From contig CADBXH010000012.1 in the NCBI GenBank assembly GCA_902798605.1, forward strand, positions 1 through 33,177: 33,177 nucleotides of DNA, written 5' to 3'. Made by a program: the position numbers and the translations under genes. Below are positions 17,146 through 29,936 of this stretch, one piece after another. Numbering within the stretch: position 1 is the stretch's first letter; each line of letters opens with the position of its first letter. The stretch is from an uncultured Ruminococcus sp. GTDB lineage: Bacteria; Bacillota_A; Clostridia; Oscillospirales; Acutalibacteraceae. The notes beneath the pieces were generated by a model. It was not told the origin of the DNA and made no database searches. It was given only the letters and a program-made list of their open reading frames with translations.

Positions 17146-17174
17146 TTGCAATTTATCTAATAAAATGCTATACT
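17146..17174 (+). promoter_or_regulatory. Promoter of the acyl-handling operon
   Basis: TTGCAA (17146-17151), a 17-bp spacer and TATACT (17169-17174) with a TG extension (TGCTATACT). It is the only clear promoter found for the following ten genes. Confidence 0.75.
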
Positions 17175-17220: not shown

Positions 17221-19158
17221 ATGGACAAGCACACGCTCGGCGGATATAATTCGATAAACGCCTTTGTAGAAGCAAAACTGAATAAATACAGTAACTCAAA
17301 ACGCGATTTTGAAGTGTTGTTTGAGCTGATGTTTTCCGAGGGTCAAAACACAATGTTTGAGGAGAGCCGCGGTTACAGGGTAATAAAGACGACCTACGCT
17401 CAGGCAAAGGAGGAGATCCTTTTAAAGGCGCGCACGCTAAAGGAGCTTTTAAGCGGCGAAAAGCAAAACGCGGTTGTAGGTATATATATGGAAAACAGCC
17501 TTGACTGGATAGAGATGTTTTGGGCTGTTATCATCAGCGGATTCAGACCGCTTTTAATGAATATGCGCCTCGATGACGACACGCTCGAGTACGCGCTCAA
17601 AACCTGCAACGCTGCGGCTGTTATCTCGGACGAAAAGGAGTTTTCGGTAAGAACTGTAAAATGCGCGGACATCGTTGCCGCGGAGTCAAAAATCGAAATC
17701 GGAGAATTCGGCACAGAGATATTTGTGATGTCCTCGGGGACCTCCGCCAATGTAAAGATCTGCGCTTATACTGCCGAGAAGTTCTACCGGCAGATAAAGG
17801 GCAGCTACAGTATGATCCAAAAATGCAAACAGGTCAAAAAGCATTACGAGGGCGAGCTGAAGCTGCTGACGTTTTTGCCGTTTTATCATATTTTCGGCTT
17901 GGTCGCCGTATATATATGGTTCGCGTTTTTCTCGCGCACCTTTGTACGCCTCAACGATATGCAGCCGAGCACGATCACGAATACTATAAAAAGGCATAAG
18001 GTGACCCACGTTTTCGCGGTCCCGCTGTTTTGGGAAAAGGTATATGAGCAGGCGCTGCGCACGATAAAGGAGCGCGGCGAGGACACATATAAGAAGTTTG
18101 AAAAGGGTATGAAAATAAGCCGCGCTATCGGCGACTTCCCGATCCTCGGCAACTTGTTTTCCAAGCTCGCATTCAAAGAAGTCAGAGAGAATATGTTCGG
18201 CGAGAGCATTGTGTTTATGATAACCGGCGGAAGCTACATCAGCACCGAGACGATGGAGTTTTTCAACGCGATCGGCTACCGCCTCGCGGACGGCTACGGA
18301 ATGACCGAGATAGGTATAACCTCGGTCGAGCTCAGCGGCAGCAAAAAGCTGCTCAACTCCTGCTCTGTCGGGCTTCCGATGGCGGGCGTGGAGTATAAAA
18401 TCAACCCGGACGGCGAGCTGCTTGTCAGGGGCAAGGCTATGGCGAGCTACATAATCGAGGACGGAAAAAAGCAGCCGAACAGCGACTGGTTCAACACCCG
18501 CGACTTAGCGTCATATGACGGCAGGCGTTACCGCATCCTCGGCAGGCGCGACGACCTTATTATCGCCCCGAACGGCGAGAACCTAAACCCGAATCTTATC
18601 GAGCAAAAGCTTATCTGCGACGGCGTAAGGGGAGTTTGCCTTATCGGCGTGGACGAGGACGGAAAAACTATCCCGACGCTTATAGTTTCGGTCAACAAAT
18701 ACATCTCTGCCCAAAAGTTAGAGAAAATAAAATCGGACGTCCGCCAAAGACTTGCCGATCTGCGCCTTGCGGGACAGATACAAAAGGTCGTATTTGTTGA
18801 GGACAGTCTGCTAAAGGGCGACGAATTCAAGCTCAACCGTATCAGATTAACACGCGAATACGCAAACGGTCAGCTGACCGAGGTCAAGCCCGATAAGGAC
18901 AGCGAGCAACGCTTGGATGATGAGATCTCGCGTACGATAACCCGTATGTTCGCGATCGCGCTGAACAAGCCCGAGAGCGAGATCGGTTATACCGCCGACT
19001 TCTTCCTTGACGAGGGCGGCACAAGTCTTGATTATCTGGCGATAATCTCACAGCTCAGGGAGGAGTACAAAATACCTTTCCCGACGGGCGACAGCAGCCT
19101 CAACAGCGTAAAGGGACTGCACACATACATAAAGGACAGGCTGAATAATGCTGATTAA
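17221..19158 (+). CDS. AMP-dependent acyl ligase fused to an acyl carrier domain
   Basis: A 645-residue two-domain protein. Residues 1 to about 550 are an ANL-superfamily adenylating enzyme: the phosphate loop reads MSSGTSANVKI (normally TSGTTGxPKG), with GYGMTEIG, the hinge block DWFNTRDLASYDGRRYRILGRRDD and the A10 lysine near FKLNRIR. Residues 560-645 are a carrier domain, with the phosphopantetheine Ser602 in DEGGTSLDYL. It would activate a carboxylic acid, probably a fatty acid, and load it on its own carrier arm. The protein is soluble. The next gene overlaps it by 11 bp. A peptide-synthetase role is less likely, because no condensation domain is nearby and the neighbours are lipid acyltransferases. 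Confidence 0.88.
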   Translation: MDKHTLGGYNSINAFVEAKLNKYSNSKRDFEVLFELMFSEGQNTMFEESRGYRVIKTTYAQAKEEILLKARTLKELLSGEKQNAVVGIYMENSLDWIEMFWAVIISGFRPLLMNMRLDDDTLEYALKTCNAAAVISDEKEFSVRTVKCADIVAAESKIEIGEFGTEIFVMSSGTSANVKICAYTAEKFYRQIKGSYSMIQKCKQVKKHYEGELKLLTFLPFYHIFGLVAVYIWFAFFSRTFVRLNDMQPSTITNTIKRHKVTHVFAVPLFWEKVYEQALRTIKERGEDTYKKFEKGMKISRAIGDFPILGNLFSKLAFKEVRENMFGESIVFMITGGSYISTETMEFFNAIGYRLADGYGMTEIGITSVELSGSKKLLNSCSVGLPMAGVEYKINPDGELLVRGKAMASYIIEDGKKQPNSDWFNTRDLASYDGRRYRILGRRDDLIIAPNGENLNPNLIEQKLICDGVRGVCLIGVDEDGKTIPTLIVSVNKYISAQKLEKIKSDVRQRLADLRLAGQIQKVVFVEDSLLKGDEFKLNRIRLTREYANGQLTEVKPDKDSEQRLDDEISRTITRMFAIALNKPESEIGYTADFFLDEGGTSLDYLAIISQLREEYKIPFPTGDSSLNSVKGLHTYIKDRLNNAD

Positions 19159-19789
19159 AATATTCAACTGGTTTGTAAAAATAACCGGATGGCTGCCTCA
19201 GCGGATAGTCTTCAACACAAAGGTGTACTGTCAGGACAGATCGGTTCAGGGCAGACACATCAAAGGCGCTGCGGTCATAGCGTCAAACCACACCTCGGTT
19301 TTTGACTACGCGGCTTTGCTGTTCGTGTTTTTCACGCGCACGCTCAGGGTGCAGATGGCAGAGGTGCTCTTTGACAAAAAGCCGCTCGGGCTGTTTCTGA
19401 AAATGCTCGGCGGTATCTATGTTGACCGCGACATCCATAACTTTGATTTTTTATATAAATCCGAAGAAATCCTCAAAAAGGGCGGCGTGGTCGGCACCTT
19501 TCCCGAGAGCCGTATCCCGCGTCCGGAGGAAGAGACTCCGCTTGAATTCAAGCCCAGCACGGCGTACCTCGCCCTTACGGCGGATGTTCCCGTGATACCC
19601 GTTTATACAAACGGAAAGTATTTTTGCAAAGCGCGCGCGAGGGTCATCATCGGCACGCCGATGAAGCCTTCGGACTTCACCGACGATTCGCTTGACGAAA
19701 AGGAAAACATCGCCCTGTTCACGAACGCGCTGAGGCAGAGGATAATCGAATTGGGGAATGAGCTGAATGAACAAAGTAAAAAAGAATAA
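19148..19789 (+). CDS. PlsC-type acyltransferase 1
   Basis: A 213-residue 1-acyl-glycerol-3-phosphate acyltransferase-like protein. The catalytic HxxxxD is His48-Asp53 in SNHTSVFDY. The substrate-binding block is TFPESRIPRPEE, where the family usually has FPEG. The N-terminal helix may associate with the membrane. It would transfer an acyl group from a carrier or CoA to a lysolipid or similar alcohol. Start and stop overlap both neighbouring genes (11 bp upstream, 23 bp downstream), showing tight coupling to the carrier-fused ligase and the second acyltransferase. Confidence 0.87.
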   Translation: MLIKIFNWFVKITGWLPQRIVFNTKVYCQDRSVQGRHIKGAAVIASNHTSVFDYAALLFVFFTRTLRVQMAEVLFDKKPLGLFLKMLGGIYVDRDIHNFDFLYKSEEILKKGGVVGTFPESRIPRPEEETPLEFKPSTAYLALTADVPVIPVYTNGKYFCKARARVIIGTPMKPSDFTDDSLDEKENIALFTNALRQRIIELGNELNEQSKKE

Positions 19790-20423
19790 GGCTTCCTTGT
19801 TCAGCCCCAAAAATTTCGTTATAGATTTTATAAGGGTGACGGGAGCGATACCCACGCTTTTGCTGCTCAGGCCTAAAAAGACTTTTACGAGCGAAAAAGC
19901 AAAGGAAAAAATCCGCGGCGGCGCGCTGATAATCGCGAACCACACCGAATTCATCGACCCCGTGTATCTTATGACGGTGTTCTGGTACAGGCGGCACCAC
20001 TTTATCGCCAGCGAGGAGATAATGGACAGTGGCGCGGGCGGATTTTTGCGAGCCTGCGGCTGTATCAAGATAGACCGCAGCAACGTTACGATGAACACTA
20101 TGCGCGAGATCACCGACAGGCTCAAAAGCGGGCAGATCGTGTCGATGTTCCCGCAGGGCAGGATAAGCGGGGACGATAAGGCCGAGGCGGGTTTTAAATC
20201 GGGAATGACGCTTATGGCTATCCGCAGCGGAGCGCCGATAGTGCCCGTATATATCAAGCCGAGAGAGAGCTTTTTCTCGCGCTTAAAGGTAGTGATAGGC
20301 GAGAGGGTGAGCGTTACCGAGCTGTACGGCGAGCGCCCTACCTTTGCCGAGATAGACGCGGCTACAAAGCTGCTTTATGAAAGAGAAAAACAGCTAAAGG
20401 ATTTAGCTGATCAAAGGAGATAA
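19767..20423 (+). CDS. PlsC-type acyltransferase 2
   Basis: A 218-residue paralogue of the preceding acyltransferase, with His59-Asp64 in ANHTEFIDP and MFPQGRISGDD as the second conserved block. Charged N-terminal residues are followed by a hydrophobic stretch (about 18-35). Having two different PlsC proteins side by side suggests two acylation positions or two acceptors. The start overlaps the first acyltransferase by 23 bp, and the next ligase begins 2 bp after its stop. Confidence 0.87.
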   Translation: MNKVKKNKASLFSPKNFVIDFIRVTGAIPTLLLLRPKKTFTSEKAKEKIRGGALIIANHTEFIDPVYLMTVFWYRRHHFIASEEIMDSGAGGFLRACGCIKIDRSNVTMNTMREITDRLKSGQIVSMFPQGRISGDDKAEAGFKSGMTLMAIRSGAPIVPVYIKPRESFFSRLKVVIGERVSVTELYGERPTFAEIDAATKLLYEREKQLKDLADQRR

Positions 20424-20425
20424 AT

Positions 20426-21943
20426 ATGATTACAGATACCAGAGAAAAATTCAGACCATACACCAAGCCCGAGGATTATGAAAAGATAATCGAGCTTGAC
20501 ACCGTAAGCGAGATGTGGGAAAACTGCGTCAGGGAATACCCCAACATCGTTGCTGTTCAGGATATTGAGAGCACCCACACATTTTTGGAGCTCGAGGAGG
20601 ACGCCGCGGGTTTCAGGACTCTTATCCTCGAAAAAACAAAGGGTGAGAAAAACGCTAGGGTGGCTATTCTCGCACAGAATTCCTATGATTTTGTAAAGGC
20701 GTATATAGCGGTCGTTACCCTCGGGCTCACCGCGGTGATAGTGCCCGCCCACCTCGACAAAACAGCGGTTTTCGGCTGCTGTTTAAAGTTCGGTATAAAC
20801 ACGCTCGTTTATCAGGGCTCGCTCGAAGAGAGCGTTGAGCTCGCCAAATTAAAGCTCGACCACGTAGGATTTATCGAGATAACCGAGACAAGCGACACAA
20901 AAACACAGCTTGTCAGCTGCACTGCCGAGACCCCCTGCGTGATGATGTTCACGGGCGGCACGACAGGCAAGAGCAAATGCGCGCTGCTCTCAAACGGCGC
21001 GGTTATGCAGGGCACGGTCAACGGCTGCTACGGCGTTTGGGATGTATTTTATCAAAGGTATCTGCTCGTGCTTCCGCTCTCTCACGTTTTCGGACTTATC
21101 CGCAACCTGATGACCTCGCTCTACACGGGCAGCACGCTGTTTATCTGCAAAAACAACAAGGATATGTTCCGCGATATAGCGGTGTTCAAGCCAACCATTA
21201 TTGTAATGGTCCCCGCGCTTGCCGAGATGGCTCTGACGCTCTCAAAGCAGTTCGGCAAGAATATGCTCGGAGACGATCTTAAAACGATCATAGCCGGCGC
21301 GGCTGTTGTTGCTCCTTACCTTGTTGAGGAGTACGACAAGCTCGGTATCAGGCTTTTGCCGGGTTACGGTCTTACCGAGTCGGCGAACCTTGTATCGGGC
21401 AACCCCGTAAGCCTTGAACATCCCGAGTCGGTCGGATATCCTTATCCAAACCAGGAGCTAAAGATCGTCGACGGCGAGCTTTGGCTAAAGGGCAAGAATA
21501 TGATGGACGGCTATGTCGGCGAGGAAGAAGCGGACGCCTATGAGGACGGCTGGTTTAAGACAGGAGACCTTGTTAAGATCGACGAAAACGGTTTGCTCTA
21601 CATCACCGGCAGGATCAAGGAGATAATCGTGCTCCCCAGCGGCGAGAACGTATCTCCCGCGGAGCTCGAGACAAAGTTCAACGCTCTCCCGTTCATTCAG
21701 GATTCGCAGGTGTTTGAGGATATAGACGACGGCGGCAAGCATATTTTGGCTCTCGAGGTTGTGCCGAGAAAAACAGTTATTTCCAAACTGGATTTGGAAA
21801 ATGTCGGAGAATTCATCACCGCCGAGCTTCAAAAGGTCAATTCCGCGCTGAATCCCTTTGAGCGCGTGAGCAGGATCACCATAAGAGAAACGGACTTTGA
21901 GAGAAGCCCGAGTATGAAGATTGTGAGATATAAAAAATGCTGA
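20426..21943 (+). CDS. AMP-dependent acyl-CoA/acyl-ACP synthetase
   Basis: A 505-residue ANL-superfamily ligase with a fully canonical phosphate loop (FTGGTTGKSK), GYGLTES, the hinge DGWFKTGDLVKIDENGLLYITGR, and the A10 lysine in SPSMKIVRYK. It activates a fatty or other carboxylic acid as an acyl-AMP and passes it to CoA or ACP. The adjacent stand-alone ACP gene makes acyl-ACP the likely product. ATG 20426 has AAAGGAGAT at the right distance. Its stop overlaps the start region of the ACP gene (TGATG). Confidence 0.9.
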   Translation: MITDTREKFRPYTKPEDYEKIIELDTVSEMWENCVREYPNIVAVQDIESTHTFLELEEDAAGFRTLILEKTKGEKNARVAILAQNSYDFVKAYIAVVTLGLTAVIVPAHLDKTAVFGCCLKFGINTLVYQGSLEESVELAKLKLDHVGFIEITETSDTKTQLVSCTAETPCVMMFTGGTTGKSKCALLSNGAVMQGTVNGCYGVWDVFYQRYLLVLPLSHVFGLIRNLMTSLYTGSTLFICKNNKDMFRDIAVFKPTIIVMVPALAEMALTLSKQFGKNMLGDDLKTIIAGAAVVAPYLVEEYDKLGIRLLPGYGLTESANLVSGNPVSLEHPESVGYPYPNQELKIVDGELWLKGKNMMDGYVGEEEADAYEDGWFKTGDLVKIDENGLLYITGRIKEIIVLPSGENVSPAELETKFNALPFIQDSQVFEDIDDGGKHILALEVVPRKTVISKLDLENVGEFITAELQKVNSALNPFERVSRITIRETDFERSPSMKIVRYKKC

Positions 21944-22197
21944 TGACAAAACCTGAGATAATAAATAAACTAAAGGATATTTTGCTGGTCGCCGACGGCG
22001 GCAACGCGGAGAAGATCAATAACGCGGACGAGAACACAAGGCTATTGGAGGACTTGGGACTCAACTCGGTCAATGTGCTCTACCTTGTTATCGCGATCGA
22101 GGAGGTATTTGAGATCCGCTTTGACGACGACACGGGAGTGGATTCGTTCTCTACGGTAGGCGACGTTGCGGATTATATAGGGGGAAAGCTCAAATGA
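21937..22197 (+). CDS. Acyl carrier protein
   Basis: An acidic 86-residue carrier protein with the phosphopantetheine attachment Ser44 in LEDLGLNSVNVLYL (DSL of primary-metabolism ACP is NSV here). Helix IV (TVGDVADYIGGKL) is present. The divergence from the FabD/FabF-type ACP sequence suggests a dedicated carrier for this cluster, not the fatty-acid-synthesis ACP. ATG 21937 and ATG 21943 are both possible; the latter gives a TGATG junction with the ligase. Its stop overlaps the LRAT-like gene (ATGA). Confidence 0.9.
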   Translation: MLMTKPEIINKLKDILLVADGGNAEKINNADENTRLLEDLGLNSVNVLYLVIAIEEVFEIRFDDDTGVDSFSTVGDVADYIGGKLK

Positions 22198-22626
22198 AGT
22201 GGGCACCGAACGACTGCAAAAGCGGAGATATGATAAGGATACGTCTCGGCTCTATCTACCACTACGGTATTTTTGTCAGTGAGGACGAGGTCATCCAGTT
22301 CGGATATCCGCCCCTGCCTGAGTTCAAGGATAAAAACCAAAGCATAACCGTTGACGCCGTAAACATCGACGAGTTTTCAAGCGGAAAGATCGTAGAGGTC
22401 GCCGTGCTTGACCGCAAGGAGAAAAAACGCCGCTTCGCCCGAAAAGACCGTGGAGCTCGCTCGGGCAAAAATCGGCACGGGCGGCTATAATATCCTGCAC
22501 AATAACTGTGAGCATTTTTGCTACGAGTGCGTTTTCGGCGTCAAAAAGAGCACGCAGGAGGAGTACATCCGCTCGATGTGGCAGAGTATGCTATTTAAGG
22601 GCGGCAAGGATAACAGTCAGGATTGA
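22194..22626 (+). pseudogene. LRAT/NC-domain acyltransferase, frameshifted
   Basis: Two overlapping frames together give one LRAT-like protein of about 144 residues. The first part (from ATG 22194) has the LRAT opening GDMIRIRLGSIYHYGIFV with the first catalytic His, then VIQFG where the second His is normally found. The second part, in the +1 frame, has PEKTVELARAKIGTGGYNIL and the catalytic Cys in NNCEHFCYECV. The frame changes at or near a run of six A (22422-22427); deleting one A restores the reading. LRAT enzymes move acyl chains between lipids, or act as phospholipases A. The cause may be sequencing error, a real mutation or slippage at the A run. Start overlaps the ACP stop by 4 bp; the next gene starts 4 bp after. 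Confidence 0.8.
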
Positions 22627-22630
22627 TATT

Positions 22631-23563
22631 ATGATATTTCTTTATATTTTGCTCGGGCTGCTCGTGCTGTATATTATCTTTGCGGTGTTCCCCGCAATAT
22701 TTCTGTTTCATTTCATTTTTTCACGCAAGGATAACAGCCCTAAGCTGACCGAGCGAGACCTGATCGGTACGCGTTACGAGCCGTATATGCAAGAGCTTGT
22801 GGCGGCGGACAGGTTCATCAGGAGCAAAATAACAGGCAAAGTAAAAATAACGGCGCGCGACGGCGAGATCATGACGGGCGATTACCTTGATAACGGGTCG
22901 GAGAACACCGTGATTTTTGTTCACGGCTTCTGCGGAAACCCTATCAGTAACTTTTGTTTGCAGGCAAGGCATCTGTATGATATGGGCTTCAACGAGCTGT
23001 TCATCAACCAGCGCGCCCACGGCGAAAGCGGCGGAAAAAGGCACGGGCTGGGTTTGCTCGAGCAGTATGATGTCCTGAAATGGATAGAGCTTGAGGAAGA
23101 AAAGCCAAACGTAAAAAGCATACTTCTCTATGGCTCGTCAATGGGCAGCGCGTCGATTGCCTACGCCTCGGATAAAATAAAATCCGAAAAGGTAAAGGGA
23201 ATGGTTATTGACTGCGCGTTTTCGTCTGTCGGAAAGCAGCTTGAATACGACAGCAAAAAGCGCCATATCCCGCCGTTTTTAACGCTGCCGATAATCAGGC
23301 TGATCGCCCGGGCTTTGCTCAAAGAGGATATATATACCCCGTGCGGCAGGTCGCTTGCCAAAACAACGATCCCCGCGCTGTTTATTCACGGAACGGGCGA
23401 TATAACCGTGCCGTATGAAAGCGGTATCGAAAACTACAACGCCTGCGCCGGCGAAAAGACGCTTATCTCGGTCGAGGGCGCTCAGCACATAGTTGATTAC
23501 GCCGCGGGCGAAGACCGAACAAAAGAAGGCTTAAAACAGTTTATAACTGATCATATTAAATAA
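22631..23563 (+). CDS. Membrane-anchored alpha/beta hydrolase 1
   Basis: A 310-residue protein with an N-terminal membrane segment (about 2-30) and an alpha/beta hydrolase domain. The landmarks are VHGFCGNP (oxyanion region), NQRAHGESGG, the nucleophile elbow GSSMGS with Ser170, the acid in HGTGDITVP and the His in GAQHIVDY. It is probably an esterase or lipase acting at the membrane. ATG 22631 was chosen because it begins the membrane segment and follows the LRAT stop; upstream in-frame sequence lies inside the LRAT gene. The hydrolase at 26354 has a similar layout, and these may be paralogues. Confidence 0.87.
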   Translation: MIFLYILLGLLVLYIIFAVFPAIFLFHFIFSRKDNSPKLTERDLIGTRYEPYMQELVAADRFIRSKITGKVKITARDGEIMTGDYLDNGSENTVIFVHGFCGNPISNFCLQARHLYDMGFNELFINQRAHGESGGKRHGLGLLEQYDVLKWIELEEEKPNVKSILLYGSSMGSASIAYASDKIKSEKVKGMVIDCAFSSVGKQLEYDSKKRHIPPFLTLPIIRLIARALLKEDIYTPCGRSLAKTTIPALFIHGTGDITVPYESGIENYNACAGEKTLISVEGAQHIVDYAAGEDRTKEGLKQFITDHIK

Positions 23564-23609
23564 AGGCAACGCCGCGCTTGCGGCATCACCTAAAGAAAGG
23601 ACAATCAAA

Positions 23610-24545
23610 ATGAACAAATTTGCAATCATCTCGGACGCTTCCTGCGACGTCAGCAAGGAAATGAAAAAGGAGTACGATATAATCACCATCAACGGTCACG
23701 TTACGCTCCCCGACAGATCCGAAGTCAGCGAATTCATCAACTGGAACAAAACCAACCGCGAGCAGTTTTATAAGGATCTCAGTAAAAATCCCGACGGTTA
23801 CGTTACCTCTCCGCCAAATGTCGACGAGTTTGCAGCTGCTTTTGAAAAGTGCATAGAAAACGGACAGGACGTTATGGTAATAACTATTTCGGGCGCTATC
23901 AGCGGCGCGTTCGACTTTGCAACTCAGGCAAAAAAGCAGGTCGTTGAAAAGTATCCCGACGCAAAGATCGTGATCGTCGATTCTTTAAGGTTCAGCATCG
24001 GCCACGGCTTGCTCGTTGTTCTGGCGGCTAAGCTCAGAGAAAACGGACATTCTATCGAAGAAGCCGCGGCTTATATCGAGGAGAACAAAAACCGCGTTCA
24101 CCAGTGCGGCTGGCTCGACGACCTCAGCTTTGTAGCCAAGAAGGGCAGACTTACCCACTCCAAGGCTTTCTTCGGCAAGCTCGCCGGTATCAAGCCTATC
24201 GGAGAGTTTGACTACAACGGACTTACCACGGTCATCGGCAAGGTCAAGGGAGCTAAAAAAGCCTATGCCGTTTTGCTCGATTATATCGAGAATACTATCG
24301 AGAATGCCTCGGAGCAGACGATATTTATTGCCCAGACAAACAGACTTGCCCCGGCTGAAAAGTACAAAGAGATGATACTCGAGCGCTTTAAACCCAAGGC
24401 GGTCGAGATAGTTGACGTTTATCCGTTCTGCGGAGTAAATGTCGGTCCCGGACTTATGGCGGCTTATTATGTGGGCAAGCCCATTTCAAAGGGACTCGAT
24501 CAGGAAAAAGAGCTTATTCAAAAGATCATTGAACAGCAGGGATAA
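23610..24545 (+). CDS. DegV-family fatty-acid-binding protein (FakB-like)
   Basis: A 311-residue DegV protein. Family landmarks are ISDASCDV, VTSPPNVDEF at about 65-74, ITISGAISGAF at 91-101, LDDLSFVAKKGRL and VNVGPGLMAAYYVG near the end. FakB proteins hold a fatty acid while FakA phosphorylates its carboxylate. Compared with typical FakB, the SSGLSG block reads SGAISG and the His before GPG is Asn277, so the ligand or head-group contacts may differ. The adjacent FakA-like gene supports the role. It begins 46 bp after the hydrolase behind AAAGAAAGGA; a small GCCGC-GCTT-GCGGC hairpin (23571-23584) in this gap lacks a T run. Inverted repeat DNA follows. Confidence 0.85.
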   Translation: MNKFAIISDASCDVSKEMKKEYDIITINGHVTLPDRSEVSEFINWNKTNREQFYKDLSKNPDGYVTSPPNVDEFAAAFEKCIENGQDVMVITISGAISGAFDFATQAKKQVVEKYPDAKIVIVDSLRFSIGHGLLVVLAAKLRENGHSIEEAAAYIEENKNRVHQCGWLDDLSFVAKKGRLTHSKAFFGKLAGIKPIGEFDYNGLTTVIGKVKGAKKAYAVLLDYIENTIENASEQTIFIAQTNRLAPAEKYKEMILERFKPKAVEIVDVYPFCGVNVGPGLMAAYYVGKPISKGLDQEKELIQKIIEQQG

Positions 24546-24574
24546 TAGAGTTAAAATTCGTTAATGTGATTTTT

Positions 24575-24654
24575 GTAGGGGCGGATCCATGTGTCCGCCC
24601 GCTTATAGCCAAACGTTGGTGAGAGAACGGGCGGACACGCGGGTCCGCCCCTAC
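24575..24654. repeat. GC-rich 27-bp inverted repeat element
   Basis: Arms at 24575-24601 and 24628-24654 match at 25 of 27 positions (GTAGGGGCGGA...TGTCCGCCCG), with a 26-bp spacer. It lies between degV and fakA and is much more GC-rich than other gaps. No transposase or second copy is in the window. It looks like a dispersed palindromic repeat or small MITE-like element; the transcript would fold into a strong hairpin. Confidence 0.85.
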
Positions 24655-24675
24655 GAAAGCAAAGGAAATGATTAT

Positions 24676-26337
24676 ATGAGGAACAAACGCATCAACGGAG
24701 TTCAGTTTGAGAAGATGGTCAAAAACGGACTCCAAAACCTCAGCAGGCACGAGGAAGAGGTTAACAAGCTCAATGTTTTTCCCGTGCCCGACGGCGACAC
24801 CGGTACAAATATGTACCTAACGCTCGCCAACGGAATAAAATACGCGAAGTCAAGCGCGTCGATAGGCGTTTACACCAAGGCGCTTAGCGCGGGTATGCTG
24901 CTCGGCGCAAGGGGAAATTCGGGAGTTATACTTTCCCAGTTTTTCAAGGGCTTTCACACCGAGCTTGCGCGGGCGTCCTTTGCGGGACCCGGTGAGCTTC
25001 GCAACGCGCTTATCAGGGGCTACCGCACGGCGTATGACTCAGTCATCAAGCCGGTGGAGGGTACTATCCTGACCGTTGCGCGAGAAGGTATAGAGCATAT
25101 CAGAGGGCAGATCACAAGGAATTCTACGATCGAGGAGATCCTTGCGATGTATATCGCCGAGATGAAAAAGACCCTTTCGTACACGCCCGAAATGCTCGAC
25201 GTGTTAAAGGAAGCAGGGGTAGTTGACAGCGGCGGACAGGGCTTTGTCTATATCTTTGAGGGTATGCTCGGCTACCTTTACGGCGATGTTTACAGAACAA
25301 ACAAAAAGGTTGCCGCCAAGGAGCACAGCGCGCCCAACCCGGGTAAAGAGATCGACTTCTCTCTGTTCAACGAGAATTCAAGCTTTGAGGACGGTTATTG
25401 CACAGAGTTTATTTTACAGCTCCTAAAGGGCGAAAAATACACCCAGCGCTTCAAGCTCGAAACATATATCGAGGATATAGGTGTTTACGGCGACTCGCTC
25501 GTCGTGGTTCAGGACGGCAAGCGCGTAAAGGTGCATATCCACACGCTGAAGCCCGCAAAGGTCATCGCGCTAAGCCAGGAATACGGCGAATTTTTGACCT
25601 TTAAGATGGAGAATATGCAGCTTCAGCACAATGAAGTTTTAAAGAAAAAAATAGAGCCCAAAAAGCTGCCTCACAAGGAACTCGCTATCGTCTCCGTAGT
25701 TAACGGCGACGGACTTGAAGCCTTGTTTAAGGAGCTGGGCTGCGATGTCGTTATAAAGTGCGAGGAGACTATGAACGCTTCCTCACAGGAATTTGTCGAC
25801 GCGTTTGAGCTGATCGACGCGGACGCCATAGTTGTTATGCCTAACAACAAAAACGTGATACTTGCGGCGCAGCAGGCGGTTGAGCTTTGCGGCAAAAAGA
25901 ACGTTCATATCCTGCCGACAAAGAGCATAGCCGAGGGCTACTTTACCAAAGCTATGGATGTGCCCGACGAAAAGCCGGCTTTCAGGATTAACCAGATGAA
26001 AAACGGCCTTGACGATGTCTGCACGCTCGTAGAGACGACCGCAACGCGCGACTACACCTACCACGAGCTGACCTGCAGAGCCGGCGAGGATATAGTTTTG
26101 CTAAATGGAGAGCTTGTCTGCGTTTCAAAGAACCGGTACGATGCTATAATCGACGGAATGAAGCTCGTGCCGGAGATAGAAGACAAGGAGACCTGCGTGG
26201 TTTTCTGCGGTGACGAGGTCGACGAGGAACAGATCGACGAGCTGACCGAACGCGTTGAGGAGGAGTTCCCTCTGCTCGACGTTGAGTTTATCGAGGGCGG
26301 TCAAAAGCATTACCGCTGGATAATCGGACTTTGCTAA
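24676..26337 (+). CDS. fakA: DAK2-domain fatty acid kinase (FakA/YloV family)
   Basis: A 553-residue protein of normal FakA length. The N-terminal DhaL/DAK2 nucleotide domain covers about residues 1-205, with magnesium-binding Asp in PVPDGDTGTN (36-45) and LLGARGNSGVILSQFF. The middle domain and the C-terminal FakB-binding-like region (ELAIVSVVNGDG, MPNNKNVILAAQQAVELC, LPTKSIAEGY) follow. FakA phosphorylates fatty acids bound to FakB, giving acyl-phosphate for phospholipid synthesis. ATG 24676 was chosen: it has AAAGGAAATG upstream, and the longer in-frame reading runs back into the inverted repeat. It follows the DegV gene, as a kinase/binder pair would. Confidence 0.88.
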   Translation: MRNKRINGVQFEKMVKNGLQNLSRHEEEVNKLNVFPVPDGDTGTNMYLTLANGIKYAKSSASIGVYTKALSAGMLLGARGNSGVILSQFFKGFHTELARASFAGPGELRNALIRGYRTAYDSVIKPVEGTILTVAREGIEHIRGQITRNSTIEEILAMYIAEMKKTLSYTPEMLDVLKEAGVVDSGGQGFVYIFEGMLGYLYGDVYRTNKKVAAKEHSAPNPGKEIDFSLFNENSSFEDGYCTEFILQLLKGEKYTQRFKLETYIEDIGVYGDSLVVVQDGKRVKVHIHTLKPAKVIALSQEYGEFLTFKMENMQLQHNEVLKKKIEPKKLPHKELAIVSVVNGDGLEALFKELGCDVVIKCEETMNASSQEFVDAFELIDADAIVVMPNNKNVILAAQQAVELCGKKNVHILPTKSIAEGYFTKAMDVPDEKPAFRINQMKNGLDDVCTLVETTATRDYTYHELTCRAGEDIVLLNGELVCVSKNRYDAIIDGMKLVPEIEDKETCVVFCGDEVDEEQIDELTERVEEEFPLLDVEFIEGGQKHYRWIIGLC

Positions 26338-26353
26338 AGGATATTGGAGTATT

Positions 26354-27295
26354 ATGAGCACTTGGATTTGGATAGCCGTCTTGGTGGTGATGTTCGGGTT
26401 TGTACTTCCCGAGATCATCTTGGCGGGCGTTATCTACACCGTCCTGCTTGTCAGGACATCAAAAAAGAAATGGGGCAGAGACGTTAAGCTCCCCGAAAAC
26501 GACGAAGAGTACAGCGGAATGTACTACGACGGACTCGACTGGGGCGAGCTTTACTCAGACTATAAGCGCGAGGTCGAGGTGCAGAGCGGAAAGTACCACC
26601 TTGTCGGCGAGTATTTTGACTTTGGCGGCGAAAAGGCGGCTATAGTGATCGCCGGAAGAATGGAGTCGCTAAAGTATTGCTACTACTTTGCCGAGCCCTA
26701 CCGGAAGTCGGGCTACAATGTGCTTGTTATCGACAACCGCGCCCACGGTTATTCCGACGGAGTTTTCTGTTGCCTCGGCTACAGAGAGTACGCCGATCTG
26801 CAGTGCTGGAGCAGGCTGCTCGTCGAGGAGCTTCACAACAAGAGCGTGTTTTTGCACGGCATCTGCATCGGCTCTTCGGTGGCGCTGTTCGCTATGGTAG
26901 ACAAAAACTGTCCCGATTACATCGAGGGAATGTGCGCCGACGGAATGTTTGTCAATTTCAGCGAGACATTCAAAAATCATATGGATGAGGACAAGCACCC
27001 GAAGCTTATCTTCACTTGGCTGATATTCCTTTTTATGAGGGTTTTCTCGCACGCGAATGTTGTGAGCGACGGCCCGATAAAACGCATAGACAGGCTCAAA
27101 AAGCCGATACTTTTCATCCACAGCAAGCAGGATACCTACTCAACGCCCGACCAGGCGGAAAAGTTGTTTGAAAAGTGCGGCTCCGAAAACAAGCGCCTTG
27201 TATGGTTTGAAAAAGGTCAGCATTCCCGTGTAAGGGTGAATGCGCCCGAAAAGTACGACAGTACGATAATTGAATTTTTAAAAGAATTAAAATAA
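26354..27295 (+). CDS. Membrane-anchored alpha/beta hydrolase with Cys at the nucleophile position
   Basis: A 313-residue protein with an N-terminal membrane segment (about 5-33) and an alpha/beta hydrolase domain. NRAHGYSDG at 128-136 matches the related hydrolase at 22631. The elbow reads HGICIGSS, so the nucleophile position is Cys171 where relatives have Ser. The acid (HSKQDTYS) and His (KGQHSRV) are in place. Cys nucleophiles are known in dienelactone hydrolases of the same fold, so the enzyme may still be active on another substrate. It is 16 bp after fakA and is the last gene of the acyl cluster. Confidence 0.83.
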   Translation: MSTWIWIAVLVVMFGFVLPEIILAGVIYTVLLVRTSKKKWGRDVKLPENDEEYSGMYYDGLDWGELYSDYKREVEVQSGKYHLVGEYFDFGGEKAAIVIAGRMESLKYCYYFAEPYRKSGYNVLVIDNRAHGYSDGVFCCLGYREYADLQCWSRLLVEELHNKSVFLHGICIGSSVALFAMVDKNCPDYIEGMCADGMFVNFSETFKNHMDEDKHPKLIFTWLIFLFMRVFSHANVVSDGPIKRIDRLKKPILFIHSKQDTYSTPDQAEKLFEKCGSENKRLVWFEKGQHSRVRVNAPEKYDSTIIEFLKELK

Positions 27296-27313: not shown

Positions 27314-27358
27314 AAAGAGAGAGATAAAAATTCTCTTTCTTTTTCTTTTCTTCTCTTA
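27314..27358 (+). terminator. Possible weak terminator of the acyl operon
   Basis: AAAGAGA (27314-27320) can pair with TCTCTTT (27332-27338), followed by a long pyrimidine tract rich in T. It is AT-rich and not a strong stem. Confidence 0.35.
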
Positions 27359-27513: not shown

Positions 27514-28563
27514 GTGAAAAATAAAAAACTACATATCAAACTCAAAAGGGTGATCGGCATTTTCCTTCTGATTATTTTTGCCTTTTCCGCGCTCTCGATG
27601 GCGGGCTCGGTCGTGATTTTCGGCGTGCTGTTCCACCGTGTCGATTCGCTCGACAACTCTGTAGAGATAACCTACGCGCTCGCTCAATCAAACTGCCGGC
27701 GCGAGCAGGTAAGCTTTGACTCCGGCGGCAATAAGCTGAGTGGATATTTGTATTCCGCGAATGACCCCAAGGGTCTGGTCATCATCGCCCCCGGGATGAA
27801 CAGCAACAGCGATTCCCACCTTGCGGAGATATTGTTTTTTGCGGACAACGGCTACCGCGTGCTCGCTTATGACGCGACCGGCGTTTGCCAAAGCGAGGGA
27901 GATAGCACCGTAGGCTTGCAGCAGTCAAAGCGCGATCTTTTGGCGGCGATAGACTACGCCGAAAAAGATCCCAAAACCAAGGCTCTGCCCGTGTATCTCT
28001 ACGGCCACAGCCTCGGCGGTTACGCCGTTGCGGCGGCGCTTGACGAGGCGGACGTTAAGGCGGCGGTGTGCCTTTCGGGCTTCAACTCGCCCGTTCAGAC
28101 GATGCACGACAAGGCTAAGGAGTATGTGGGAGTTCTGGCGGATATAGAGTACCCGTTTTTGTATTTGCAAAACCGCTTTGTATTCGGCGATGACGCCGAC
28201 GATACCGCGGTGGATTCGGTCAATTCGTCCGACACGCCGATTTTGATTTGCCGCGGCGATAACGACGATACGATCCCATACGAGCTGAGTTTGTCCTCGC
28301 GTGAGGATGAGATAACAAACGTCAACGCAAAGTTTGTTAAGGTTGACGATGAGTTTCGCGACGGTCATACAAATCTATGGCTCAGCGGGGATTCGGCAAA
28401 GTATATGTCCGACCTCCAAAACGAGCTCAATGATCTCAATCATATTTACGACGGGGATATTCCCAAAAACGTGCTCGATGATTTTTACGGCAAAATAGAC
28501 GTAAAAAGAGCGATGAAGCTCGATAAAGACTTTATGAACAGGGTGCTGGAGTTTATGAATTAA
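27514..28563 (+). CDS. Membrane-anchored alpha/beta hydrolase 3
   Basis: A 349-residue protein. A basic N-terminus and a hydrophobic segment (about 12-40) form a signal anchor, so the catalytic part probably faces outward. The hydrolase domain has IAPGMNSNSDSH, DATGVCQSEG, the elbow GHSLGG with Ser166, the acid in RGDNDDTIP and the His in RDGHTNLW. It is related in fold to the hydrolases at 22631 and 26354 but separated from them by the repeat patch. It starts with GTG, preceded by GAGGTG. Its stop overlaps the stop of sigF on the other strand by 4 bp, with no terminator between. Substrate unknown. Confidence 0.83.
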   Translation: MKNKKLHIKLKRVIGIFLLIIFAFSALSMAGSVVIFGVLFHRVDSLDNSVEITYALAQSNCRREQVSFDSGGNKLSGYLYSANDPKGLVIIAPGMNSNSDSHLAEILFFADNGYRVLAYDATGVCQSEGDSTVGLQQSKRDLLAAIDYAEKDPKTKALPVYLYGHSLGGYAVAAALDEADVKAAVCLSGFNSPVQTMHDKAKEYVGVLADIEYPFLYLQNRFVFGDDADDTAVDSVNSSDTPILICRGDNDDTIPYELSLSSREDEITNVNAKFVKVDDEFRDGHTNLWLSGDSAKYMSDLQNELNDLNHIYDGDIPKNVLDDFYGKIDVKRAMKLDKDFMNRVLEFMN

Positions 28564-29210
28564 CTGCTCATTTTTTGCCGTATCAGGGTCAAGATCTTTT
28601 TCTCCCTGCGGCTGATCTGCACCTGAGTCATATTCAATATTTTTGCGGTTTGAACCTGCGTTTTACTTTGATAGTAGCGCAGGTTTATTATTTTTCTGTC
28701 CTTTTCCTCGAGCGTGCCGATCGCGTTTATCAGGCTGAGCCGCTCGGTTATCTCGTACTGGATATCGGGGGAGGGTATAACGGGAGCGGCGGTCTCATCG
28801 TCCTCATAATCAATAGACACGGTCGGCTGTGCGCTGTTCAGCGCTTCAACGATTTGTTCGGGCGTGACGCATAGCTTTTCCGCAAGCTCGGCGACGCTGA
28901 GTTCCCTGCCGTTTTTAAGACTGTACTCGTTGTTGATCCGGCTGATTTTGAGCGACAGCTCCTTTAACGAGCGGCTGACCTTGACGCTCCCACCGTCGCG
29001 GAACAGCCGTTTGAGCTCTCCCATAATGACGGGGAATGCGTAGGTGGAAAATTGCAGTCCTCTGCTATCGTCAAAGTTATTTATAGCCTTTGCAAGCCCC
29101 AGACATCCGGCGGAGTACAATTCCTCGTATTCGATTCCCTTGCCCTTGAAGCGGTTGCAGCAGGCGCGTACAAGCCCCAGGTGAGCTTTGGCGAATTCGT
29201 TCTTATCCAT
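28560..29210 (-). CDS. sigF: RNA polymerase sporulation sigma factor SigF (SpoIIAC)
   Basis: A 216-residue sigma-70-family factor. It has region 2 (YEELYSAGCLGLAKAINNFD, FSTYAFPVIMGELKRLFRD), region 3 (VSRSLKELSLKI, LSVAELAEKLCVTPEQI) and region 4 with its helix-turn-helix (KTQVQTAKILNMTQVQISRREKKIL). It directs the first forespore-specific transcription. It is shorter than the Bacillus protein (about 255 residues) because the N-terminus is trimmed, as is common in clostridia. The spoIIAA-spoIIAB neighbours separate it from SigG. The start overlaps the spoIIAB stop by 8 bp. Confidence 0.95.
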   Translation of the reverse strand: MDKNEFAKAHLGLVRACCNRFKGKGIEYEELYSAGCLGLAKAINNFDDSRGLQFSTYAFPVIMGELKRLFRDGGSVKVSRSLKELSLKISRINNEYSLKNGRELSVAELAEKLCVTPEQIVEALNSAQPTVSIDYEDDETAAPVIPSPDIQYEITERLSLINAIGTLEEKDRKIINLRYYQSKTQVQTAKILNMTQVQISRREKKILTLIRQKMSS

Positions 29211-29637
29211 CAGCGCCGATTTTCTTTATCAATGTGACGGTCGTGCCCTTTTGCGGCTCGGATTTGACCTTGACCTTGTCGCAAAAGCTCTGCATCACCG
29301 CAAAGCCCAGGCCTGCGCGTTCTTCCTCGGGTGAGGTGGTGAACAACGGCTCCATAGCCTTGCCGATGTCCTCGATCCCGACGCCCTTGTCGCGTATCTT
29401 GACGGTCACGGTGTTGTTGTCTTTGATGCTCGCATATATGTAGATCGTGCCGCTTTGCCGCCTGTAGCCGTGGACTATGCAGTTCGTCACCGCCTCGGAC
29501 ACTGCGGTTTTAAGGTCGTTTAGCTCGTTTAGCGTCGGGTCAAGCGATGTTATGAACGACGATATCGCGCCTCTGGCAAAGGCTTCGTTACAGCTTTTTG
29601 ACGGAAAGCTAAGCCTCATTTGATTTGTGGTTTTCAT
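29203..29637 (-). CDS. spoIIAB: Anti-sigma F factor / serine kinase SpoIIAB
   Basis: A 144-residue GHKL-fold ATPase. The N-box is DLKTAVSEAVTNCIVHGYR, the G1 box DKGVGIEDI and the G2 box RAGLGFAVMQSF. It holds SigF inactive and phosphorylates SpoIIAA on a serine. Length and motifs are standard. Its start overlaps the spoIIAA stop by 4 bp. Confidence 0.96.
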   Translation of the reverse strand: MKTTNQMRLSFPSKSCNEAFARGAISSFITSLDPTLNELNDLKTAVSEAVTNCIVHGYRRQSGTIYIYASIKDNNTVTVKIRDKGVGIEDIGKAMEPLFTTSPEEERAGLGFAVMQSFCDKVKVKSEPQKGTTVTLIKKIGADG

Positions 29638-29936
29638 CTCAGCACCCCCAGTGATTCAAGTCCCGACATCGCAAAAATACGGTATATGTGGTCGGGCACG
29701 TCGGTTACTCTCAGGCTTCCGCCGAGCAGCTTCATCTGGCGGTAGCGCCCCATCACAAGCCCCACTCCGGAGGAATCCATAAAGCTGACCTTTTCAAAAT
29801 TCAGGCAAAGCAGCCGAGGCCTGAGCGACCTTACGGAGCAGTCTATGCGCCGGCGTATCTTGCACGCGGAATCGTGGTCGAGCTCGCCGTCAAGGTAGGC
29901 GGTCAGAATATTATTCTTAAACTCTGTTTTTAACAT
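29634..29936 (-). CDS. spoIIAA: Anti-sigma F factor antagonist SpoIIAA
   Basis: A 100-residue STAS-domain protein with the phosphorylation site in FMDSSGVGLVMGRY. Its unphosphorylated form binds SpoIIAB and frees SigF. It is the first gene of the operon, with GGAG before the ATG. The gap to the folC terminator (29937-30011) must hold the promoter. In known sporulators this is a SigH promoter; I see only a poor match there. Confidence 0.95.
   Translation of the reverse strand: MLKTEFKNNILTAYLDGELDHDSACKIRRRIDCSVRSLRPRLLCLNFEKVSFMDSSGVGLVMGRYRQMKLLGGSLRVTDVPDHIYRIFAMSGLESLGVLR

Follow-up and report, generated by a model that had tools for sequence, protein, structure and literature searches.

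A conserved ten-gene operon in Clostridia joins acyl ligases, carriers and PlsC-like acyltransferases to a DegV-FakA pair

Gene content of the locus

The stretch of DNA analysed here, referred to below as the window, comprises 33,177 nucleotides (nt) of contig CADBXH010000012.1 from an uncultured Ruminococcus sp. and contains ten adjoining genes, A to J, that encode proteins of acyl-handling families. We describe this gene set, its conservation as a unit among related Clostridia, and the fatty-acid capture, activation and (re)acylation pathway in which it may act. A first-pass annotation, made from the letters of the window alone, had placed ten such genes on one strand at 17221-27295; scans of the window against Pfam and NCBIfam confirmed all of the families in place on the plus strand, as follows.

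17221..19158, plus strand: A, AMP-forming ligase with C-terminal carrier domain, 645 amino acids (aa), core gene (PF00501 4.7e-38, PF00550 1.1e-6)
19148..19789, plus strand: B, PlsC-like acyltransferase 1, core gene (PF01553 1.7e-16)
19767..20423, plus strand: C, PlsC-like acyltransferase 2 (PF01553 5.6e-23)
20426..21943, plus strand: D, second AMP-forming ligase, free-standing (PF00501 5.7e-52; PF23562 22.9 bits, cut-off 20.8)
21937..22197, plus strand: E, free acyl carrier protein, 86 aa (PF00550 5.1e-7)
22194..22626, plus strand: F, LRAT/PLAAT-like gene, frameshifted in this record (PF04970)
22631..23563, plus strand: G, membrane-anchored alpha/beta hydrolase with Ser nucleophile (PF00561 3.9e-15)
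23610..24545, plus strand: H, FakB-like DegV protein carrying Asn277 where FakB has its His, core gene (PF02645 9.4e-62)
24676..26337, plus strand: I, FakA/YloV kinase, dedicated paralog, core gene (TIGR03599 525.3 bits, cut-off 396.1)
26354..27295, plus strand: J, membrane-anchored protein of the alpha/beta-hydrolase fold, with Cys171-Asp260-His290, core gene

From A to J the genes are separated by -11, -23, 2, -7, -4, 4, 46, 130 and 16 nt. The largest gap, between H and I, holds an inverted repeat, and all others lie between -23 and 46 nt. The open frame of I begins at 24589; its likely start at 24676 was picked by comparison with relatives.

Conservation among nearer relatives

The search alignment consisted of A from the window and 20 of the 1805 homologues of A found; scanning it against a single genome for each bacterial and archaeal species confirmed 285 relatives of A. 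Counts for nearer relatives rest on the best 80 of these 285. Family profiles were run over the open frames of the 80 loci, on the plus strand from A to 11 kb downstream, and the presence of B to J was counted only at loci whose contig extends far enough.

Conserved synteny, named beforehand in the first-pass annotation as the check on which its reading might fail, was borne out. The order A-B-C-D-E-F-G-H-(M)-I-J, in which M is an MFS_2 gene, shows no break in the 80 nearest loci, many of which end early, and all ten genes are visible in 48 of them. At least two genes are visible in 79 loci, at least five in 68 and the five core genes in 57. The unbroken order holds for nearer relatives, since the 80 loci are the best of the 285 and distant ones are rearranged. 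B was found in 74/74 loci, C in 71/71, D in 63/68, E in 66/68, F in 61/65, G in 62/63, H in 60/60, I in 55/55 and J in 54/54, and the median gaps between common neighbour pairs range from -26 to 16 nt.

Conservation ends near the start of A, because the upstream genes of 70 loci belong to 56 families, none with more than four members; these genes come from a simple open reading frame picker, so that some upstream neighbours may be spurious, and 55 of the 70 are at least 150 aa long. Downstream of J, one single-linkage family is common to 24 of 37 loci, represented for example by the hydrolase gene K or by a zinc-ribbon protein (L034). K itself, which begins 218 nt after J in the window, was seen in 18 of the 80 loci, a set in which many stretches stop around the end of J.

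Among the 80 loci, 49 have complete genes; maximum-likelihood trees built from these for A, B, D, H, I and J reached a quartet agreement of 0.57-0.73, against 0.33 expected by chance, which is in line with a largely shared descent of the operon genes. The correlation of identity distances with those of A lies above the permutation range for B, C, G, I and J. The ten-gene set is a real unit.

Distribution and distant arrangements

Strong matches to A are sparse. The phylum sample yielded 2 of 398 genomes at E<=1e-60, one of them the genome on which the sample was centred, and the class sample 12 of 391 at E<=1e-100, that genome included. In the order sample of 295 genomes there were two matches above 700 bits (again including it) and nine at 380-512 bits. 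We read 19 distant stretches, 17 of which carry the system; they include eight stretches from the stronger matches of the order sample (G163, G217, G132 and G146 were left out) and 10 of the 12 class-sample matches (G016, the genome of L063, and G996 were left out). L158 holds an A-like ligase without the operon neighbours, and L159 has one too on a stretch too short to judge; since A-like ligases without these neighbours exist, a match to A alone does not indicate the system.

The five core genes (A, a PlsC-type gene, DegV, FakA and J) are all visible in 14 of the 17 distant loci; in L151, L155 and L173 the stretch ends before the full core comes into view. Four forms can be told apart. Form 1 retains D: L151, where the MFS gene has shifted position, reads A-M-B-C-D-E-F until its contig ends, and L170 reads A-B-C-D-E-G-H-I-J, with F missing. 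Form 2, without D, has A-B-C-E, mostly F, and J, two DegV genes, FakA and genes resembling PlsX and GT2 (L152, L153, L157, L171, L172, L173 and L174); F was not seen in L174, and J and DegV are out of view in L173. Form 3 is a minimal DegV-FakA-MFS-A-B-J arrangement in six loci (L154, L155, L156, L175, L176 and L177), the contig of L155 ending inside FakA. Form 4 (L178 and L179) combines GT2-like and lipase-type genes with A, a gene for a PlsC-type protein of some 465 aa, DegV, J and FakA.

Family scans identified PlsX in L153 and L172, where the L172 copy barely reaches the curated threshold (243.4 bits), and GT2 in L153, L172 and L178, the latter proteins being weakly similar to polyprenyl-phosphate glycosyltransferases at scores below the cut-offs. 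In L178 they also identified the lipase-type protein beside A and the double PlsC. The PlsX, GT2 and lipase-type labels at other distant loci were given by eye, from similar starts and positions. A free-standing phosphopantetheinyl transferase occurs in L172. Also in L178, an 841-aa protein (L178:1342-3867) combines a xylose-isomerase-like TIM barrel with a fatty-acid-CoA-ligase-like domain, and L179 has a protein of the same length.

In form 2, which lacks D, a PlsX-like gene lies near FakA, and this suggests that D and a FakA-PlsX route may be alternative ways of charging E. The first-pass annotation had taken the pairs of ligases, carriers and PlsC proteins to mean two acyl chains or two acceptor positions. 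That idea is weakened, because the minimal arrangement of the six form 3 loci has one ligase, one carrier and one PlsC protein; in addition, D was not found in 5 of the 68 nearer relatives.

Ligases, carriers and PlsC-like proteins

The expected catalytic residues are kept throughout this group. In A, the carrier Ser602 is present in 78 of 80 loci and the adenylation Lys537 in 79 of 80; in D, Glu318 and Lys498 occur in 63 of 66, with three gaps; and Ser44 of E is found in 66 of 66. The HX4D motif is invariant in both acyltransferases, with His48/Asp53 of B in 79/79 loci and His59/Asp64 of C in 74/74. B and C thus belong to the PlsC family by PF01553 and by this motif; their scores of 51.3 and 68.9 bits are under the TIGR00530 cut-off for PlsC itself (102.95 bits). 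In the FPEG block of C, the window has Gln130, which it shares with 1 of 74 relatives; the other 73 have Glu.

E. coli Aas is the nearest described counterpart, and the locus had been read as a dissected and expanded Aas-like system. What stands of that reading is the acyl-handling families, the kept motifs and an MFS_2 gene in 34 of 58 relatives. Membership of the Aas family does not stand, because B, C and D fall far below the Aas cut-offs of NCBIfam (41.5 and 57.6 bits for B and C, cut-off 1221; 93 bits for D, cut-off 1349) and because the parts are separate genes. No Aas model was among the best 25 of the 70 NCBIfam models compared with A. As in the LplT-Aas system described in a passage of PMC11416262, a carrier-charging ligase adjoins a PlsC-type acyltransferase. 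In many relatives an MFS-superfamily gene adjoins as well, and the PlsC part of the Aas fusion models gives scores for B and C. Unlike that system, the operon has its ligase and acyltransferase on separate chains and a carrier fused to the ligase; its core includes a DegV-FakA pair and a Cys hydrolase-fold protein; and the relatives have MFS_2 rather than LplT, the window having neither. According to the same passage of PMC11416262, LplT-Aas has been identified only in Gram-negative bacteria, and lyso-lipid uptake and acylation activity is reported in streptococci.

The LRAT/PLAAT-like protein and the hydrolase-fold proteins

F is an LRAT-like gene, as first proposed, but does not form a single open frame in this record. 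One frame codes for the N-terminal part (22194-22490; 21.4 bits against PF04970, cut-off 24.3) and another for the C-terminal part, where the catalytic Cys lies (22408-22626; 39.3 bits). In relatives, F is uninterrupted at 64 loci, with lengths of 132-410 aa, and the protein collection holds a 144-aa protein, P0122, that is near-identical to the F of the window and encoded in a single frame; the break is therefore an assembly error or a recent mutation. Two further F homologues, P0213 and P0238, also seem, when read by eye, to be cut or frameshifted.

The relatives place F in the LRAT/PLAAT family by domain, residues and fold. The PF04970 domain was detected in 46 of the 47 F proteins scanned (64 were found), and His23 and the NCEHF Cys106 are kept at 95% or more of relatives. 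A model of the L002 copy (pLDDT 92) has its best fold matches in human HRASLS2, AdPLA and PLAAT3. F thus resembles the PLAAT/HRASLS proteins in predicted fold and in His23 and the NCEHF Cys106, and differs from them in being bacterial, in being frameshifted in the window, and in being joined in 21 of the 47 scanned proteins to a phosphopantetheinyl transferase domain (E<=0.01). Phosphopantetheinyl transferases are the type of enzyme that activates carriers, and their presence within F and free-standing in L172 fits dedicated carriers. By eye, F of about 280 aa at L016:14971-15813 and L020:15403-16254 has a C-terminus like a phosphopantetheinyl transferase without the usual motifs, and at L050:13487-14164 a phosphopantetheinyl transferase-like protein, in which no LRAT part was seen, stands in place of the LRAT gene.

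G, J and the downstream protein K have hydrophobic N-termini in the window, in line with the membrane anchoring first proposed for the hydrolases. J has a Cys and not a Ser at the nucleophile position. In G, Ser169, Asp256 and His285 are each present in 62 of 63 copies, with one gap. In J, Cys171 and Asp260 are present in 57/57 and His290 in 55, with two gaps; the Cys recurs in all 15 copies examined from distant arrangements. The J model (pLDDT 87) matches Pf2001 esterase and monoacylglycerol lipases, enzymes that use a Ser nucleophile. A Cys nucleophile suits thioester exchange, and J may therefore be an acyltransferase or a thioesterase.

The DegV-FakA pair

H is a DegV protein by TIGR00762 (206.7 bits, cut-off 99.7) and scores below the FakB1 equivalog NF038249 (116.5 bits, cut-off 350). 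Thr66 and Ser98 of the FakB carboxyl site are kept in 64/64. I is a FakA/YloV protein by its TIGR03599 score and by its catalytic residues, and scores below the FakA equivalog NF038248 (403.6 bits, cut-off 975). Its Asp39, Asp41, Cys242, His287 and His289, kept in 57 to 59 of 59 copies, are the same Asp, Asp, Cys, His and His residues named for S. aureus FakA in a passage of PMC9136124.

The FakA of the operon is a dedicated paralog. The operon copy is present in all of 20 host genomes; 19 of these carry one or more FakA-like genes besides, and G008 shows none other. In a tree with 10 of the further copies, the 57 operon copies, that of the window included, and five copies from distant systems form one clade with support 1.0. 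PlsX and PlsY are each found outside the operon in 19 of the 20 hosts, and among eight genomes searched for DegV, fakA, degV and plsY are clustered elsewhere at G002:C31, G003:C7, G005:C30 and G007:C8, likely as an ordinary cluster for fatty-acid uptake. Since hosts keep FakA-like, PlsX, PlsY and fakA-degV-plsY genes elsewhere, the operon is an extra system.

A housekeeping role for the operon was considered and rejected, as PlsX, PlsY and a further FakA-like gene were each found in 19 of 20 hosts, and each host has 3 to 8 PlsC-type matches, the operon's own included. With the PlsX-PlsY-PlsC route of Bacillota the operon would share acyl-phosphate and acyl-carrier donors; it also shares PlsC-type transferases and, in one distant arrangement, PlsX. 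It differs in having no PlsY among its genes, and hosts carry PlsX and PlsY elsewhere.

With the FakAB system of S. aureus, as described in passages of PMC9136124 and PMC8892158, the pair shares the kinase catalytic residues and the carboxyl-site Thr and Ser of the DegV partner. It differs in the replacement of the DegV His by Asn, in scoring below the FakA and FakB1 equivalog cut-offs, and in consisting of dedicated paralogs within a ligase operon.

Proposed pathway

DegV-FakA pairs naturally act on free fatty acid, and so do acyl ligases that stand beside carriers and PlsC-type transferases. On the sequence evidence above, we consider it about an even chance that the locus is a dedicated operon of Clostridia that captures and activates fatty acids for (re)acylation, with an acyl-phosphate branch attached. 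In the scheme that we infer, every substrate, direction and product being a proposal, fatty acids would be freed by F and the hydrolase G or taken from the surroundings. A would adenylate a fatty acid and load it onto its own carrier domain, and D would likewise charge the free carrier E. H would present fatty acid to the kinase I to give acyl-phosphate, which PlsX could convert to acyl-ACP in the arrangement without D. B and C would then transfer the acyl group from the carriers to a lyso-lipid or another acceptor, J might move or release it by way of a thioester on its cysteine, and the MFS_2 protein present in about half of the relatives could carry the lipid across the membrane. A and B, with the MFS_2 protein where present, may act as Aas and LplT do; by this analogy, the best reading is a pathway whose ligase contains its own carrier and which would operate as LplT-Aas does without belonging to it.

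Of 58 relatives, 34 have the MFS_2 gene, placed between DegV and FakA (PF13347 5.4e-31 for the L010 copy). The MFS_2 family presumably includes the animal lyso-lipid carrier Mfsd2a. Among solved structures the MFS protein has no relative at E<=0.001 and one at 0.0042.

Several observations weigh against this capture pathway. The window and 24 of the 58 relatives lack MFS_2: the Pfam and NCBIfam scans found no MFS gene among the ten operon genes of the window, and hence no LplT-type partner, and among 12 genomes searched, the nine without an operon MFS_2 had remote members or none, with nothing above 77 bits. The closest solved structures to A are o-succinylbenzoate ligases, and the best solved relatives of D are feruloyl- and fatty-acyl-CoA ligases. 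In 6 of 7 form 2 copies of A the nucleotide motif is TSAT and not SSGT, so that ligase activity is less sure there and may be altered. For D (0.09) and H (0.08) the correlation of identity distances with A is within the permutation range.

The binding site of H is a further such point. In S. aureus FakB1 a Thr-Ser-His network holds the fatty-acid carboxyl, the His being His270, as stated in a passage of PMC8892158. Alignment to solved DegV proteins, including 4x9x, sets Asn277 of H at this His in 62 of 64 copies, with two gaps, and H thus lacks one of the three FakB residues. Asn occupies the position in 14 of 14 operon DegV proteins (from 13 genomes and the window) and in none of 28 other DegV proteins, which have His in 18, Ser in 9 and Tyr in 1. 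Among 13 aligned core DegV proteins of distant arrangements there are six Asn and seven Ser; in the additional DegV protein of form 2 the residue is Ser in five copies and Cys in one, and two extra DegV proteins near form 3, on the other strand in L154 and L155, have His. The locus had been described as carrying a FakAB-like pair: the FakA and DegV families stand, the FakB His is not kept, and binding of fatty acid by H is not certain.

A bolder version of the capture pathway is tentative and, to us, somewhat short of an even chance. It holds that the five-gene core defines a new acyl-lipid pathway of Clostridia that would turn free fatty acids into acyl-phosphate and acyl-carrier in parallel, and in which J would be a new membrane acyltransferase acting through a cysteine acyl-enzyme, building or maintaining a novel lipid.

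Alternative functions

The main rival, which we judge unlikely but the most serious, is synthesis of a special acylated lipid, such as a glycolipid or one with unusual chains: the carriers would deliver defined acyl groups, B, C and J would acylate a dedicated head group, and the transporter would export the product. Dedicated carriers and phosphopantetheinyl transferase domains do resemble a biosynthetic line, hosts keep PlsX and PlsY elsewhere, and the presence of the system is patchy, as the 12 strong matches to A in the 391 class genomes illustrate. The GT2 genes beside distant arrangements fit a glycolipid product and count against fatty-acid capture; a polysaccharide-deacetylase-like gene in L152 and L172 and a MatE protein adjoining the arrangement in L173 point the same way. 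Against this, a head-group enzyme is found in neither the main nor the minimal six-gene arrangement (Pfam and NCBIfam scans detected none among the ten genes of the window), and the three lipid-cleaving folds of F, G and J suit turnover better.

Detoxification or uptake of free fatty acids in the gut, with fatty acids trapped as acyl-phosphate and acyl-carrier and then stored or incorporated while the hydrolases act on dietary lipids, appears improbable. An animal or gut site is named in 23 of the 80 records, and 30 more bear the RUG label, which we take to denote rumen genomes; DegV and FakA do belong to the core. Some of the same genomes, however, already have the separate fakA, degV and plsY cluster, and the hydrophobic N-termini of the hydrolases G, J and K may also speak against such a role.

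It is very improbable that the ligases act on carboxylic acids other than fatty acids (aryl or amino acids) and that the operon makes a small secondary metabolite: the sequence neighbours of A and D do include o-succinylbenzoate, feruloyl and non-ribosomal peptide synthetase adenylation proteins, and one source labels the homologue P0085 a non-ribosomal peptide synthetase, but there is no condensation domain among the ten genes, PlsC, DegV, FakA, LRAT and PlsX belong to acyl-lipid chemistry, and D carries AMP-binding_C_3 just above the cut-off.

Novelty and implications

The first-pass annotation knew of no described system with this full set of genes, and we found none either: in the open-licence literature, judged from titles and the starts of abstracts and with subscription papers mostly outside its scope, no paper dealt with this gene set, and the combination of LRAT, phosphopantetheinyl transferase and acyl carrier protein returned zero papers. 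If the capture pathway proves true, a conserved counterpart of LplT-Aas in gut Clostridia would show how free fatty acids are handled there, FakAB proteins would gain a role apart from ordinary uptake, and bacterial PLAAT-like enzymes together with a hydrolase-fold protein with a Cys nucleophile would be placed in a testable pathway. Ruminococcaceae bacterium P7 (L003), a record not titled a metagenome assembly, may open a route to experiments.

Signals and genes around the operon

Further features of the window in and next to the operon are as follows.

17146..17174, plus strand: promoter-like site, TTGCAA-17-TATACT with TG (consensus match only)
24571..24658, no strand assigned: 31-nt inverted repeat occupying the H-I gap, 87% complementary
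27314..27342, plus strand: terminator-like hairpin of 11 pairs and T run after J (consensus match only)
27514..28563, plus strand: K, third membrane-anchored alpha/beta hydrolase, accessory (Pfam Hydrolase_4 7.7e-16)

The promoter evidence is weak, because the scanned region holds 28 such sites against a mean of 10.9 in shuffles. Terminator-like sites number 27 against a mean of 15.1, and the hairpin after J is a possible end of the operon. Scans of the window with Rfam (gathering scores) and for tRNAs returned nothing. The inverted repeat between H and I had no match in the other loci compared; it is perhaps an inserted small mobile palindrome outside the system. The G-H gap has, at 23564-23591, a terminator-like hairpin of 12 pairs with its T run on the minus strand. 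Beyond K, three genes on the minus strand at 28560-29936 resemble, from their open reading frames read by eye, a sporulation-type anti-sigma/sigma factor set.

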